Source of the DNA: Candidatus Ventrimonas merdavium
GTDB lineage: Bacteria; Bacillota; Clostridia; Lachnospirales; Lachnospiraceae
Assembly: GCA_018715565.1 (NCBI GenBank)
Contig: DVLJ01000174.1
Span: 1-39,898 of the forward strand
Direction of reading: 5' to 3'
DNA length: 39,898 nt
The notes beneath the pieces were generated by a model. The model saw only the letters and a program-made list of their open reading frames with translations. It was not told where the DNA came from and ran no database searches. Position numbers and translations under genes: made by a program. The stretch's first letter is position 1; each line of letters opens with the position of its first letter. This document shows, piece after piece, positions 306 through 5,647 of the stretch.

Positions 306-932
306 ATGGCAAAAGTGTTACTGATAAACGGCAGCGGCAATGCAGGCGGCTGCACCTTTACGGCCCTGTCCGAGGTGGCGGGAGCGTTAAACCAGGATGG
401 GATCGAGACGGAGATCATCCAGCTGGGCAAGGATCCGATCCGGGACTGCATCGGATGCGGAGCCTGCGCTGATTTAAAGAGATGTGTATTTGACGACGAT
501 CTGGTCAATGAGATCCATGAGAAGGCGAAGACTGCGGACGGCTTTGTCTTTGGTTCTCCGGTCTACTACGCCCATCCCAGCGGCCGGATCCTGTCCTTTT
601 TGGACCGCCTGTTCTACTCCGGCGGCGGAGCCTTTGCCTATAAGCCGGGAGCGGCGGTGGTATCCGCCCGGAGAGCCGGGACCACGGCTTCCATCGACGT
701 GCTGGACAAGTATTTCACGATCGCCCGGATGCCGGTGGTTTCCTCGAATTATTGGAACATGGTGCACGGCAACACCCCGGAGGAGGTAAAGCAGGATCTG
801 GAAGGCCTGCAGATCATGCGCGGCATCGGCCACAGCATGGCCTGGATGATCAAGTGCATCGAGGCCGGCAAGGCGGCGGGCGTCGCTTATCCGGAAGGGG
901 AGAAGAAGATCCGGACGAATTTTATCCGGTAG
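306..932 (+). CDS. Flavodoxin-fold NADPH-dependent FMN reductase / iron-sulfur flavoprotein family
   Basis: KVLLINGSGNAGG FMN-binding start, CIGCGAC cysteine motif, GSPVYYAHPSG; RBS AGAGGAGG upstream of ATG. Confidence 0.85.
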   Translation: MAKVLLINGSGNAGGCTFTALSEVAGALNQDGIETEIIQLGKDPIRDCIGCGACADLKRCVFDDDLVNEIHEKAKTADGFVFGSPVYYAHPSGRILSFLDRLFYSGGGAFAYKPGAAVVSARRAGTTASIDVLDKYFTIARMPVVSSNYWNMVHGNTPEEVKQDLEGLQIMRGIGHSMAWMIKCIEAGKAAGVAYPEGEKKIRTNFIR

Positions 933-1009
933 AACAGCCGCCCCAGGCGGACGGTTTCGGCAGGTCCTTCTCGGACTGCTTAGGATAGGATTTGATCATC
1001 TCATCAGAA

Positions 1010-1042
1010 AAGCTCTTGTCGATAGCGGCAGGAGCTTTTTTT
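1010..1042 (+). terminator. Intrinsic terminator after the flavoprotein gene
   Basis: AAGCTCTTGTCG-ATAG-CGGCAGGAGCTT stem (two G.U pairs) followed by a T-run. Confidence 0.8.
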
Positions 1043-1043
1043 C

Positions 1044-1092
1044 TTGACATTAATCCGAAATCGTATTATAATCCTTAATACGATTTCGGATT
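1044..1092 (+). promoter_or_regulatory. marR promoter with overlapping inverted-repeat operator
   Basis: TTGACA (1044-1049), 17-nt spacer, TATAAT (1067-1072). Perfect 17-bp inverted repeat AATCCGAAATCGTATTA (1052-1068) / TAATACGATTTCGGATT (1076-1092), 7-nt spacer. Confidence 0.85.
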
Positions 1093-1129
1093 GAATGAAA
1101 CATACCACCGAACAAGGAGGTCTCAGGCT

Positions 1130-1639
1130 ATGGACAGGAACTATGAGCTGGTCCGGCGCATCGGGCTGGCGATCAATAAGATCGACGGCGTATATTACCT
1201 GCTGGCGCGGCATTACGGGTGCAACGAGAATACCCTGGCGTTCCTCTACGCCCTGGATGACGGTCAGCCCCATTCCCAGAAGGAGATCAGCGACGAGTGG
1301 CTGATCCCCCGCACCACGGTCAATTCCACGGTGAAGCATATGCTGGCGGACGGTTATATCACCTGCACTACGGAACCCCACAAGAAGGAGAAAGCGATCA
1401 TGCTAACGGAAAAAGGGCGCGCCTACGCGGCGGAGCTGTTCCGCGGCGTCTACCAGGCGGAGGAGCAGGCGATCATCGATACGCTGGAGCAGTTCTCCCC
1501 GGAATTTGTAAGCGCCCTGGAACGGTTCAGCGCCCGCCTGCACCAGGAGTTCCATGAGATCATCCGCAAAGAGGCGCGATGCAGGGAAGCAGGGAGCAGC
1601 GGAACGGAAAACAACAGAGCAGAAACGGAGCGGAGTTAA
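1130..1639 (+). CDS. MarR family winged-helix transcriptional regulator
   Basis: MDRNYELVRRIGLAINKIDGVYYLLARHYG..., wHTH region EISDEWLIPRTTVNSTVKHMLADGYIT. ATG at 1130 preceded by AAGGAGG. The TTG at 1091 in the ORF track lies inside the operator palindrome, so it is unlikely to be the start. Confidence 0.88.
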   Translation: MDRNYELVRRIGLAINKIDGVYYLLARHYGCNENTLAFLYALDDGQPHSQKEISDEWLIPRTTVNSTVKHMLADGYITCTTEPHKKEKAIMLTEKGRAYAAELFRGVYQAEEQAIIDTLEQFSPEFVSALERFSARLHQEFHEIIRKEARCREAGSSGTENNRAETERS

Positions 1640-1642
1640 GTG

Positions 1643-2974
1643 ATGAAGATCCAATTATCCAGCCATTTTACTTATAAGAGTCTGATCGCATATTGCATTT
1701 CTCCCATCATGATGATGGTGTTTACCTCCATCTACGGCGTGGTGGACGGCTTTTTCGTGTCCAATTATGTAGGAAAGATCTCCTTTGCGGCAGTCAATCT
1801 GGTCATGCCGTTCATCATGGTGCTGGGCGGCGTGGGCTTCATGATCGGGACCGGCGGGAGCGCCCTGATCGCCATGACCTTAGGACAGGGGAAGCAGGAG
1901 CGGGCGAACCAGTATTTTACCATGCTGGTGAAGCTGACGGTGCTCCTTGGCATCCTGACGTCGGTGATCGGGATCGTTTTTATGCGGCCCATCTCGATCC
2001 TGCTGGGAGCCACGGAGGCGATGCTGGAGGACTGTGTGGTCTATGGAAGGACCGTGCTGTTCTTCAACACCGCGTTCATGCTGCAGAACGTTTTTCAGAC
2101 CTTTCTGGCGGCGGCGGAGAAACCGAAGCTGGGTCTGGCGGCGACCACTGCCGCCGGACTGGCGAACATGGTGCTGGACGCGCTGTTCATCGCCGTGTTC
2201 CAATGGGGCGTGGCAGGCGCGGCGATCGCCACCGGCATCGGACAGTGCATCGGCGGCCTTCTCCCGTTTTTGTATTTTGCCCGTCCCAATACAAGCCGCC
2301 TGCGGTTTGCCAAGGCCAGGATGGAGGCAGGGGCTCTGCTGAAGGCCTGCGCAAATGGAGCCTCCGAGCTGATGAGCAACATCTCCACGTCCCTGATCAG
2401 CGTCCTTTATAATCTGCAGCTGTTAAAATTCGCCGGGGAGAACGGCGTGGCGGCATACGGGACGCTGATGTACATCCAGTTCATCTTCATCGCGGTGTTC
2501 ATCGGATACACCATCGGGACCGGGCCGGTCATCAGCTATCACTACGGCGCGGGGAACCATAAGGAGTTAAAGAACCTGCTGGTCAGGAGCCTGGTGCTGG
2601 TAAGCGCTGCGGGTGTGGCGATGACGATTTTGGCATGGGCGCTGGCAGGCCCTCTGGCTGGTGTGTTCGTAGGGTATGACGCGGAGCTGGCCGCCATGAC
2701 CAGGCATGCCTTCCAGCTGTTCGCCTTTTCCTTCCTGATGTCGGGGGTAAATATCTTTGCTTCCGCATTTTTCACCGCTCTGAACAACGGCGTGGTGTCC
2801 GCGGCGATCTCATTTCTGCGGACGTTAGGCTTCCAGGTCCTCTGCGTACTGGCGCTCCCGGTCTTTTTCGGCCTGGACGGGATCTGGAGCTCCATCGCCG
2901 TGGCGGAAATGCTGGCCTGCGTGGTATCCGCCCTGTTTTTGACGGGGAACCGGAAACGATATCATTATGGCTGA
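1643..2974 (+). CDS. MATE family efflux transporter
   Basis: About 440-aa polytopic protein; IYGVVDGFFVSNYVG, GTGGSALIAMTLGQG, TFLAAAEKPKLGL; directly downstream of marR (GTG at 1640 is an alternative start). Confidence 0.9.
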   Translation: MKIQLSSHFTYKSLIAYCISPIMMMVFTSIYGVVDGFFVSNYVGKISFAAVNLVMPFIMVLGGVGFMIGTGGSALIAMTLGQGKQERANQYFTMLVKLTVLLGILTSVIGIVFMRPISILLGATEAMLEDCVVYGRTVLFFNTAFMLQNVFQTFLAAAEKPKLGLAATTAAGLANMVLDALFIAVFQWGVAGAAIATGIGQCIGGLLPFLYFARPNTSRLRFAKARMEAGALLKACANGASELMSNISTSLISVLYNLQLLKFAGENGVAAYGTLMYIQFIFIAVFIGYTIGTGPVISYHYGAGNHKELKNLLVRSLVLVSAAGVAMTILAWALAGPLAGVFVGYDAELAAMTRHAFQLFAFSFLMSGVNIFASAFFTALNNGVVSAAISFLRTLGFQVLCVLALPVFFGLDGIWSSIAVAEMLACVVSALFLTGNRKRYHYG

Positions 2975-2990: not shown

Positions 2991-3019
2991 TTGACAGCTT
3001 CCCAGATTTATGCTACACT
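2991..3019 (+). promoter_or_regulatory. Promoter of the ABC-F leader
   Basis: TTGACA (2991-2996), 17-nt spacer, extended -10 TGC-TACACT (-10 at 3014-3019). Confidence 0.75.
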
Positions 3020-3039
3020 GACTTAAGGAAAAACGGAAA

Positions 3040-3164
3040 GGGGTGGAAGGATGAAGTAATATTCCTGTAGAGGAAGCTGCATAGCAAGACCAGGCGCCCA
3101 GGCCGGGCGGCAGTTTTGTTATGCCTGTTTTGCAGGAATAGGCCTTCATCCCCGCTCCTTTTTT
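3040..3164 (+). promoter_or_regulatory. Candidate uORF-coupled transcription attenuator upstream of the ABC-F gene
   Basis: uORF ATGAAGTAA at 3051-3059 lies within the 5' arm of a long stem: 3040-3046/3152-3158, 3049-3056/3144-3151 and 3060-3067/3133-3140, followed by six T at 3159-3164. Confidence 0.75.
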
Positions 3165-3286
3165 GTGTGTGAAAAATCGTGCAAAGGCACTGGAGCGGCT
3201 TGGAAAAAGACCGATTCTCTGCAAGGATGTGAGCGGGCGCGCCGGAAGGTCCGGGACAGCGTCTGGTATGCAGGGAGGCGATCAGA

Positions 3287-4942
3287 ATGTCATTGATACA
3301 GGTAACCGATCTAACATTTGAGTATGAGGGCAGCTTTGCCCCGGTATTTGAGCACGTCAGCTTTCAGCTGGATACGGACTGGAAGCTGGGCCTGGTAGGA
3401 CGGAACGGAAAAGGCAAGACCACATTTTTGAGGCTGATGATGGGGCAGATGCCTTATCAGGGGCGGATCGAGGCGTCGGTGTCCTTTGATTATTTCCCCT
3501 CTCCGGTGGAGCGGCCGGAGCGGGACACCTGGGAGGTCCTGGACGAGGTGACCAACGGGGAGGCGGAAGTCTGGCGGCTCCAGCGGGAGCTGTCCCGGCT
3601 GCAGGTGCCGGAGGATGCCCTGTACCGGCCATTTTCCACCTTGTCCAACGGGGAACAGACGAAGGTGCTTTTGGCGGCGCTGTTTCTGCAGGAAGGGCAT
3701 TTCCTGCTGATCGACGAGCCGACCAACCATTTAGACCAGGAGGCCCGGGCGCTGGTCAGCGCTTATCTAAAGAGCAAGCGGGGCTTTATCCTGGTGTCCC
3801 ACGACCGGGCGTTTTTAGACGGCTGCGTGGACCACATCCTGGCCATGAACCGGTCGGACATCCAGGTGCAGAAGGGGGATTTTTCCTCCTGGTACGCCAA
3901 TAAGGAGCGGCAGGATCAGTTTGAGCGGACGGAGCAGGAGCGGCTGAAAAAGGATATCCGCCGCCTGCAGTCCGCCGCCAGCCAGTCCAAAGCCTGGGGC
4001 GACCAGGTGGAGGCGCAGAAGATCGGCGGCGTGGCCAACCGCTACCAGACCAACATCGGGGAGCGGTCCTATCTGGGAGAAAAGTCCAGGAAGATGCAGC
4101 AGCGGCGGAAGAACCTGGAACGGCGGCAGGAGCAGGCCATTGAGGAGAAGAAAGGCCTTTTAAAAAATGCGGAGGCCCCGGAAGCCTTAAAGCTGTTCCC
4201 ACTAAAGCACCATGCCGCCAGGCTGGTGGTGTTTGAGGAGGCTGCGGCCTGCTGCCGGGAAAGCGGGGAAGAAGGCGTCATCCTGCGCTCCATCTGCCGT
4301 CCAGTGGATCTGGAGATCCGCCAGGGCGACCGGATCTTCCTCCAGGGCAGGAACGGCTGCGGCAAGACCAGCCTGTTAAAGCTGGTGCTGGCTGCGGGCG
4401 GGATGTCCGGGGCGGCCATGCCTGGGGCGGGAGCTGGAGACGGGGCGGAAGCTGGAAACGCGGCGGAGGCTGGGAGCATGGCAGAGCCGGTCCATGGTGG
4501 AGACCAGAAAGGGCGTCTGGTCTGTCAGGGGGAGATCCGCCTGGCTTCCGGCCTGATCCTTTCCTATGTATCCCAGGACACCTCCGGCCTGCGGGGGAGC
4601 CTGATGGATTATGCGGCGGCCTGCGGGGTGGAGCCCAGCCTGTTCTTTGCCCTTCTCCGAAAGCTGGATCTGTCCAGGGAGCAGCTGGAAAGGCCCATGG
4701 AGTATTACAGCCAGGGACAGAAGAAGAAGGTGCTGCTGGCCAGGAGCCTGTGCCAGCAGGCGCACCTTTATATCTGGGACGAGCCGCTGAACTATATCGA
4801 TCTCTATTCCCGGATCCAGATCGAGGAGCTGATCCTCAGCGCCTGTCCCACCATGCTCCTGGTGGAGCATGACGCGGCCTTCGGGGAGCGGGTAGCCACA
4901 AAGACGGTGCAGATCGAACGGATCTCAGAGCAGGAGCCGTAA
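3287..4942 (+). CDS. ABC-F type ribosomal protection protein, Lsa-like
   Basis: Two ABC NBDs (GLVGRNGKGKTTF ... LSNGEQTKVLLAALFLQEGHFLLIDEPTNHLD ... LQGRNGCGKTSL ... YSQGQKKKVLLARSLCQQAHLYIWDEPLNYID), no TM segments; the N-terminus FEYEGSFAPVFEHVSFQLDTDWKLGLVGRNGKGKTTFL resembles the Lsa family as I recall it. Confidence 0.88.
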   Translation: MSLIQVTDLTFEYEGSFAPVFEHVSFQLDTDWKLGLVGRNGKGKTTFLRLMMGQMPYQGRIEASVSFDYFPSPVERPERDTWEVLDEVTNGEAEVWRLQRELSRLQVPEDALYRPFSTLSNGEQTKVLLAALFLQEGHFLLIDEPTNHLDQEARALVSAYLKSKRGFILVSHDRAFLDGCVDHILAMNRSDIQVQKGDFSSWYANKERQDQFERTEQERLKKDIRRLQSAASQSKAWGDQVEAQKIGGVANRYQTNIGERSYLGEKSRKMQQRRKNLERRQEQAIEEKKGLLKNAEAPEALKLFPLKHHAARLVVFEEAAACCRESGEEGVILRSICRPVDLEIRQGDRIFLQGRNGCGKTSLLKLVLAAGGMSGAAMPGAGAGDGAEAGNAAEAGSMAEPVHGGDQKGRLVCQGEIRLASGLILSYVSQDTSGLRGSLMDYAAACGVEPSLFFALLRKLDLSREQLERPMEYYSQGQKKKVLLARSLCQQAHLYIWDEPLNYIDLYSRIQIEELILSACPTMLLVEHDAAFGERVATKTVQIERISEQEP

Positions 4943-5044
4943 GGAGCCTTGGGGAGCGCAGAAGCGCCCCCGGGCGGCACAGGACGCGGCAGGGATCTGA
5001 AAAAGGGTAGAAAAAGCCTGAAAAAGGTGGAGAGGACTCGAAAA

Positions 5045-5145
5045 AAAGAAACCGATCGGGAAAGAAACAGATCAGGAAAAGAAACGGATCAGGAAGGAAA
5101 CAGATCAGAAAAGAAACAGATCAGAAAAGAAACGGATCAGGAAAG
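5045..5145. repeat. Short tandem repeat, about 15-17 bp x 6
   Basis: Degenerate AAAGAAACRGATCAGG units: AAAGAAACCGATCGGG, AAAGAAACAGATCAGG, AAAAGAAACGGATCAGG, AAGGAAACAGATCAG, AAAAGAAACAGATCAG, AAAAGAAACGGATCAGG. Confidence 0.85.
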
Positions 5146-5158
5146 GAGATGGAGCGAG

Positions 5159-5647
5159 ATGGAGATCAGACGTGCGGTCCAGTCAGAGCTGGAGCAGATC
5201 CTGGAGCTGTACCGTCTGGCCCGGCAGTTCATGCGGGAGAATGGGAACCCGGATCAGTGGGGGGAGCATTATCCGCAGAGGGAGCTGGTCCAGCAGGATC
5301 TGGCAGACAGCTGCCTCTATGTCTGCGAGGAAGACGGGGAGCTTTTGGGGGTGTTTTATTTTTCTATGGAGGAGGACCCGGATTACCGGGAGATCTGCCA
5401 GGGCAGCTGGATCGGGAACGGTCCCTACGGGGTGATGCACCGGGTGGCCTGCCCGGGCAAACGGAAAGGCGCGGCAACCTTCTGCCTGACCTGGTGCTTC
5501 GGACAGAGCGGCGGAGATTTGCGGATCGACACCCATGAAGATAACCGTCCCATGCAGAATCTTCTTTTAAAAAATGGATTTACCCGGTGCGGGATCGTCC
5601 ACCCGAAGGATGGAGGAGAACGGATCGGGTTTGAAAAAGTACGGTAA
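5159..5647 (+). CDS. GNAT family N-acetyltransferase
   Basis: MEIRRAVQSELEQILELYRLARQFM... with GNAT-like ending NRPMQNLLLKNGFTRCGIVH. ATG 5159 preceded by AAAGGAG. The longer ORF start (4949) reads through the tandem repeat and is probably not used. Confidence 0.75.
   Translation: MEIRRAVQSELEQILELYRLARQFMRENGNPDQWGEHYPQRELVQQDLADSCLYVCEEDGELLGVFYFSMEEDPDYREICQGSWIGNGPYGVMHRVACPGKRKGAATFCLTWCFGQSGGDLRIDTHEDNRPMQNLLLKNGFTRCGIVHPKDGGERIGFEKVR

Follow-up and report, generated by a model that had tools for sequence, protein, structure and literature searches.

Can a reading frame of only two sense codons act as the sensor that controls an antibiotic resistance gene? The question is raised by the leader of an Lsa-like ABC-F gene in Candidatus Ventrimonas merdavium, in which the frame ATG AAG TAA lies within the 5' arm of a long hairpin followed by a U-run. 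We analyzed the 39,898-nt stretch of DNA carrying this leader (the window), which makes up one entire contig of a genome of 3.09 Mb. The first-pass annotation had proposed that the ABC-F gene is controlled by attenuation through a translated two-codon upstream open reading frame (uORF). This proposal is supported by the identity of the downstream gene, by the co-occurrence of leader and gene, by conservation that goes beyond pairing, and by compensatory changes in the stem. We consider it probable, from sequence comparison and from analogy to known systems, that the leader is a ribosome-mediated transcription attenuator of the ABC-F gene and that its sensor is the minimal two-codon uORF.

Results

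Structure of the leader

The leader carries a putative sigma-70-type promoter with an extended -10 element on the forward strand (2991–3019), consisting of TTGACA (2991–2996), a 17-nt spacer ending in TGC, and TACACT (3014–3019), as had been proposed. It matches the consensus at 10 of 12 positions and contains the TG. Promoter-like matches with the same 17-nt spacing, the TG extension and 9–10 of 12 consensus matches also lie upstream of the uORF in five relatives (G221, G202, G217, G215 and G214); a comparable promoter upstream of the uORF was not found in G210 or G218.

The candidate attenuator hairpin follows on the same strand (3036–3158), and its 5' arm contains a Shine-Dalgarno (SD) sequence GGGGTGG (3040–3046), the uORF ATG AAG TAA (Met-Lys-stop, 3051–3059), and the sequence TAT TCC TGT AGA (Y-S-C-R, 3060–3071), a remnant of a longer uORF. 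The U-run TTTTTT (3159–3164) comes directly after the hairpin, and runs of this length or longer are also present in G221 and G215. The hairpin of 123 nt has a predicted folding energy of -71.5 kcal/mol (z = -7.6), and none of 200 shuffled sequences was equally stable. The segment 3010–3170, covering the region whose folding had been suggested as a check, gave -72.8 kcal/mol (z = -6.4), again with 0 of 200 shuffles equally stable. Of the features described by the first-pass annotation, the 7-bp helix, one 8-bp helix, the 3 × 3 internal loop and the 2-nt bulge all recur in the minimum free energy (MFE) structure; the third helix, given there as 8 bp, is about 13 bp. In this structure the basal helix contains the SD of the uORF, the second helix (3049–3056) contains ATG AAG, and the TAA stop forms exactly the 5' side of the internal loop. 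A few A/G–U pairs extend from the hairpin into the U-run. At 123 nt the hairpin is long for a terminator, which counts against reading it as an attenuator.

The leader element is present as a single copy in its genome. We rejected a repeat element as its explanation, since across the genus there is also one per genome, except for antisense matches of the near-palindrome. The frame 3' of the uORF stop is open for 78 codons (3060–3296) and runs over the start of the ABC-F gene; we treat it as probably due to chance, because in G221 it is closed, as judged by eye.

The downstream gene and its neighbors

The gene proposed to be regulated (3287–4942, forward strand) encodes an ABC-F protein of 551 aa. 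It scores 409 bits against the general ribosome-protection model NF000355, over the cut-off of 380, and 628 bits against the Lsa model NF000167, under the curated cut-off of 750; we therefore call it Lsa-like and not a formal Lsa. Its best solved relative is Lsa(A) (PDB: 7nhk). The second half of the protein carries an insertion of low complexity, rich in Ala, Gly and Glu (encoded at about 4397–4520), which lies outside the region aligned with Lsa(A) and contributes to the sub-cut-off NF000167 score. Proteins of the LsaA group protect against pleuromutilins, lincosamides and streptogramin A (PMC10201436). The relatives found by sequence are from Lachnospiraceae and other Bacillota.

Upstream neighbors of the gene, named by eye from their translations, vary among the orthologues and include a GGDEF protein, FolD, a flavodoxin-like gene and others, with a MATE efflux gene in the window. 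The leader stays the same while these neighbors change, which indicates that it belongs with the ABC-F gene and not with the MATE gene. G210, G202 and G217 have a flavodoxin-like gene immediately beside the ABC-F leader; in the window (306–2974), a MarR-like gene and the MATE gene come between the two. On the other side of the ABC-F gene, a repetitive charged stretch (4949–5158, KETDRERNRSGKETDQEGNRSEKKQIRKETDQE) lies 5' of a putative acetyltransferase gene that may actually begin near 5159.

Co-occurrence of the leader and the gene

A covariance model was built from eight leaders and used to search related genomes. The ABC-F gene occurs in 13 of 24 genomes of the genus, and exactly these 13 gave a match to the element, the 11 others giving none (Fisher p = 4e-7); as eight of the 13 matches are the model's own sequences, the independent part of this result consists of the five further ABC-F species and the 11 blank genomes. 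Across 397 genomes of the family, the model matches 21 including the window, and 20 of the 21 matches lie at an Lsa-like gene.

The exception (L182, G048:C9:1661-1789) is a strong match to the model, with a three-codon MRK* uORF and a hairpin, that precedes a phosphoesterase-like gene. No ABC-F gene was found in the sequence stretch around it, and it may be either an orphan leader or one whose target has changed. In G021, a match (L132) covering 43 bases of the 3' arm was set aside, the part examined there being without the leader.

Conservation of the two-codon uORF

The two-codon uORF, M[K/R]*, is present in seven of seven orthologues within the genus. It reads ATG AAG TAA in the window, G221, G210, G202 and G217, and ATG AGA TAA in G215 and G214. 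Two-codon frames of this form also occur in G218, G331 and G567. The coding DNA of the seven orthologues is 65–80% identical, and the GGGGTG of the SD, the ATG and the TAA are invariant among them. Their pairing partners vary. From -12 to +9, only 3 of 21 positions of the 5' arm vary (-5 and two in the K/R codon), compared with 12–14 of the 21 partners that vary or become unpaired (Fisher p = 0.001–0.009, with neighboring positions not fully independent). The TAA of the window is unpaired in the fold and is still TAA. The invariance of SD, ATG and TAA despite variable partners argues that translation is constrained, and not only folding. From these sequences, pairing alone evidently fails to explain the conservation, and initiation together with a stop would explain it.

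The hairpin itself is conserved and covarying in eight species. The change in the K/R codon is matched by its partner (G–C to A–U at +6), C–G/U–A and G–C/U–A exchanges occur further into the stem, and RNAalifold found 8 of 37 pairs to be changed on both sides. The attenuator proposal had been held open to refutation by a lack of conservation of the uORF or the stem in homologues, and to a check for covariation among their leaders; both uORF and stem proved to be conserved, and the stem covaries. Within the hairpin, conservation is highest over the SD and uORF and poor in the central loop region. In G215 and G214 the Y-S-C-R remnant is out of frame and its pairing is kept, and this segment is now apparently retained for pairing. 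That related species keep the two-codon design indicates that the element is real.

Origin by shortening of longer uORFs

About 90 leaders were extracted for comparison of their uORFs, which are of three types, with three codons (M[KR][KRI]*), six or seven codons (MxxxSC(R/K)*), or two codons (M[KR]*). Read through its stop, the window gives M K * Y S C R, which aligns codon for codon with the longer SC type and has a stop at codon 3. By this alignment, the two-codon uORF is derived from a longer uORF via an early stop.

In a tree of the ABC-F genes, the seven two-codon genes form one clade (support 100/99) inside the SC half, and G218 (MK*) lies inside the three-codon half. G331 (MR*) pairs, with modest support, with the genus g370 (MKL*) beside the main clade. 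In G567, from another family of the order, the leader reads ATG AAG TAA TTT TCT TGC TAA (MK*FSC*), and its nearest neighbor, L036, reads ATG AAG AAA TTT TCT TGC TAA (MKKFSC*; support 97/87); the six-codon and the two-codon uORF thus differ by a single base. The tree and leaders point to shortening to two codons at least three times, G567 being one genome that is 66% complete.

Another leader (L003, G065) has a two-codon MI* uORF (ATG ATT TGA) with an SD in the 5' arm of a hairpin. We left it uncounted, its hairpin and flanking sequence being different, and it is a possible further independent case. The SC type also occurs on plasmids: lsa(E), a plasmid gene known from the clinic (L212, CP006623.1), has the uORF MYNFSC*, which is identical in three Lachnospiraceae genomes (L159–L161), and a Clostridium tagluense plasmid has MNNFSC*. 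Comparison of these leaders suggests that mobile and chromosomal Lsa genes share the attenuator type.

Arrangement of terminators and constrained folds

Many of the leaders whose uORF is long have no U-run at the uORF hairpin, and a second hairpin adjoining the gene resembles a terminator, as in the logic of vmlR. Both are present in G210, G202 and G217, where the first U-run is weak. The window, G221 and G215 have a strong first U-run and a weak or degenerate second hairpin, the second terminator near the gene being degenerate in the window. The window thus seems, from its sequence, to have merged sensor and terminator in one hairpin.

A ribosome stalled on the uORF had been proposed to block the stem physically. 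Positioned at 3051, it would cover about 3036–3068, including the basal helices, and when 3036–3067 was barred from pairing, the terminator was lost in the predicted fold. In this constrained fold of the window, the freed 3' arm (the anti-uORF segment) pairs downstream, where the sequence of the uORF segment recurs, a pairing that might serve as an antiterminator; the second terminators of the relatives stay folded under the same constraint. The predicted accessibility of the SD of the ABC-F gene in the window was 0.35 with the uORF free and 0.51 with the uORF occupied. Across the eight species, constrained folds gave no consistent direction in the accessibility of the gene's SD, unlike vmlR and cplR, and translation attenuation is therefore not claimed here.

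Discussion

Proposed mechanism and alternatives

In the attenuator that we favor, ribosomes would make Met-Lys and depart when drug is absent, followed by pairing of the arms and stopping of RNA polymerase at 3159–3164. If formation of the first peptide bond were blocked by a drug (a pleuromutilin, a lincosamide or streptogramin A), the ribosome would halt at 3051. The leading edge of start-stalled ribosomes has been reported to lie at +16 to +18 (PMC9226507, PMC12121999); a ribosome halted in this way would occupy both basal helices and keep the basal stem open, and transcription would enter the ABC-F gene. In a frame this short, sensing would be limited to the start step, or at most to the step of codon 2 and the stop. 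Retapamulin and lincomycin are known to halt initiating ribosomes, and induction of vmlR requires the start codon and SD of its uORF, with several tripeptides being functional (PMC9226507); cplR behaves like vmlR (PMC10201436). We infer the drug response, its drug class, the direct blocking of the stem and the lack of a role for the peptide; the inducer class named by the first-pass annotation likewise comes from the gene family. In Bacillus subtilis, an MRK variant was a weaker inducer than MIN (PMC9226507), so that codon identity can matter, which counts against this reading, as do the lack of an Rfam match and of any consistent unmasking of the gene's own SD.

The most serious rival keeps the same attenuator and places the informative stall at the stop codon, where the P site holds fMet-Lys-tRNA and the A site UAA, so that drugs or stress hindering release or early elongation would give the signal. 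Every M[K/R]* leader has TAA as its third codon, two-codon minigenes with UAA are described as showing slow termination and frequent peptidyl-tRNA drop-off (PMC8708949), and shortening of the uORF arose more than once. However, uORFs of three and of six or seven codons serve the same gene family, and a stop at codon 3 is thus not generally needed; moreover, start-codon arrest already accounts for vmlR, with its several functional tripeptides. We regard the stop-codon stall as unlikely. To the same limited degree, the repeatedly shortened M[K/R]-stop uORFs might be minimal sensors in which the stop codon participates, the ribosome being trapped after the first peptide bond and before release and reporting a failure of early elongation or release instead of a peptide-specific stall.

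It is much less probable that the two-codon uORF is a decaying sensor, in which an early stop broke a longer leader peptide and regulation is fading. The uORF is visibly shortened from a longer form, and the degenerate second terminator of the window would fit such a history, but ATG, K/R and TAA are kept in all seven species of the 100/99 clade together with compensatory changes in the stem, and shortening occurred independently elsewhere. For the single case of G567, decay is possible.

We give hardly any weight to the hairpin being a constitutive terminator, for instance of the upstream MATE gene, with an incidental ATG AAG TAA: it lies 62 nt 3' of the stop codon of MATE and its U-run is a proper one, but a separate promoter lies between the two, the leader is constant where upstream genes differ, and SD, start and stop are invariant though their partners vary. 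Equally improbable is a ligand-binding RNA or a protein-binding antiterminator that works with no ribosome, which the long and very stable structure might suggest; a search of the window against Rfam 15 gave no match at the gathering score, the central loop is not where conservation is highest, and ABC-F genes of this kind are known with uORFs (PMC10201436). The conservation pattern in the aligned leaders contradicts each of these last three readings, the decaying sensor included.

Relation to known systems

The attenuator proposed here resembles the vmlR leader of Bacillus subtilis (uORF MIN; PMC9226507), which also precedes an ABC-F gene with the same resistance spectrum, and which has a very short translated uORF in a hairpin, with its start and SD needed, and an intrinsic terminator between uORF and gene. 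In vmlR the uORF has three codons, its hairpin (an anti-antiterminator) is separate from the terminator, and a further hairpin hides the vmlR SD; in the window there are two codons, and a single hairpin would act as both sensor and terminator. The cplR leader of Clostridioides difficile (uORF MRI, consensus MR[I/M]; PMC10201436) likewise combines an ABC-F gene in Clostridia with a uORF hairpin and premature termination, and its R at codon 2 can be counted as a likeness to the M[K/R]* leaders. Its uORF differs in having three codons, its terminator is separate and additionally masks the cplR SD, and CplR belongs to ARE1, whereas the gene of the window is Lsa-like (ARE3-like). The closest characterized protein family is that of LsaA, for whose leader uORF4u predicted a uORF of four codons and other sequence (MAGN; PMC10201436). 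The Lsa-like leaders of other Lachnospiraceae and of plasmid lsa(E) share the gene family, homologous leader sequence and a uORF in a hairpin; their uORFs are of the M[KR][KRI]* or MxxxSC(R/K)* type with three or six to seven codons, and most have a second terminator adjoining the gene. In axe-txe and in the EHEC LEE1 leader, too, a translated two-codon leader ORF affects a downstream gene, but these minigenes are reported to act on the translation of the next gene or on mRNA stability, and not through drug stalling and a terminator (PMC8708949).

The window thus has the downstream ABC-F gene, the conserved short uORF with an SD, and the hairpin-sequestered uORF and terminator before the gene that characterize leaders of the VmlR/CplR type. 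Its uORF has two codons in place of three to four, a difference within the kind and not in what the mechanism requires. In the open literature, with subscription papers largely outside the search, no two-codon ABC-F uORF was found, the stated lengths being three or four codons. By default, uORF4u accepts ORFs of nine nucleotides or more, a minimum given as three codons (PMC10219788). What is new here, on the evidence of the sequences, is a conserved two-codon form, shorter than those described, of a known type of attenuator that is drug-inducible and that presumably responds to drugs here as well.

If it works as proposed, this would be the smallest natural antibiotic-sensing reading frame of its kind found, and it would separate start-codon arrest from peptide-dependent arrest, which are confounded in longer leaders. 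The series of two, three and six to seven codons within one gene family amounts to a natural experiment on the role of the uORF peptide in sensing. Searches for uORFs that demand three sense codons could miss such leaders. The finding also suggests that, under the same condition, ABC-F genes are expressed inducibly in Lachnospiraceae and related Clostridia.
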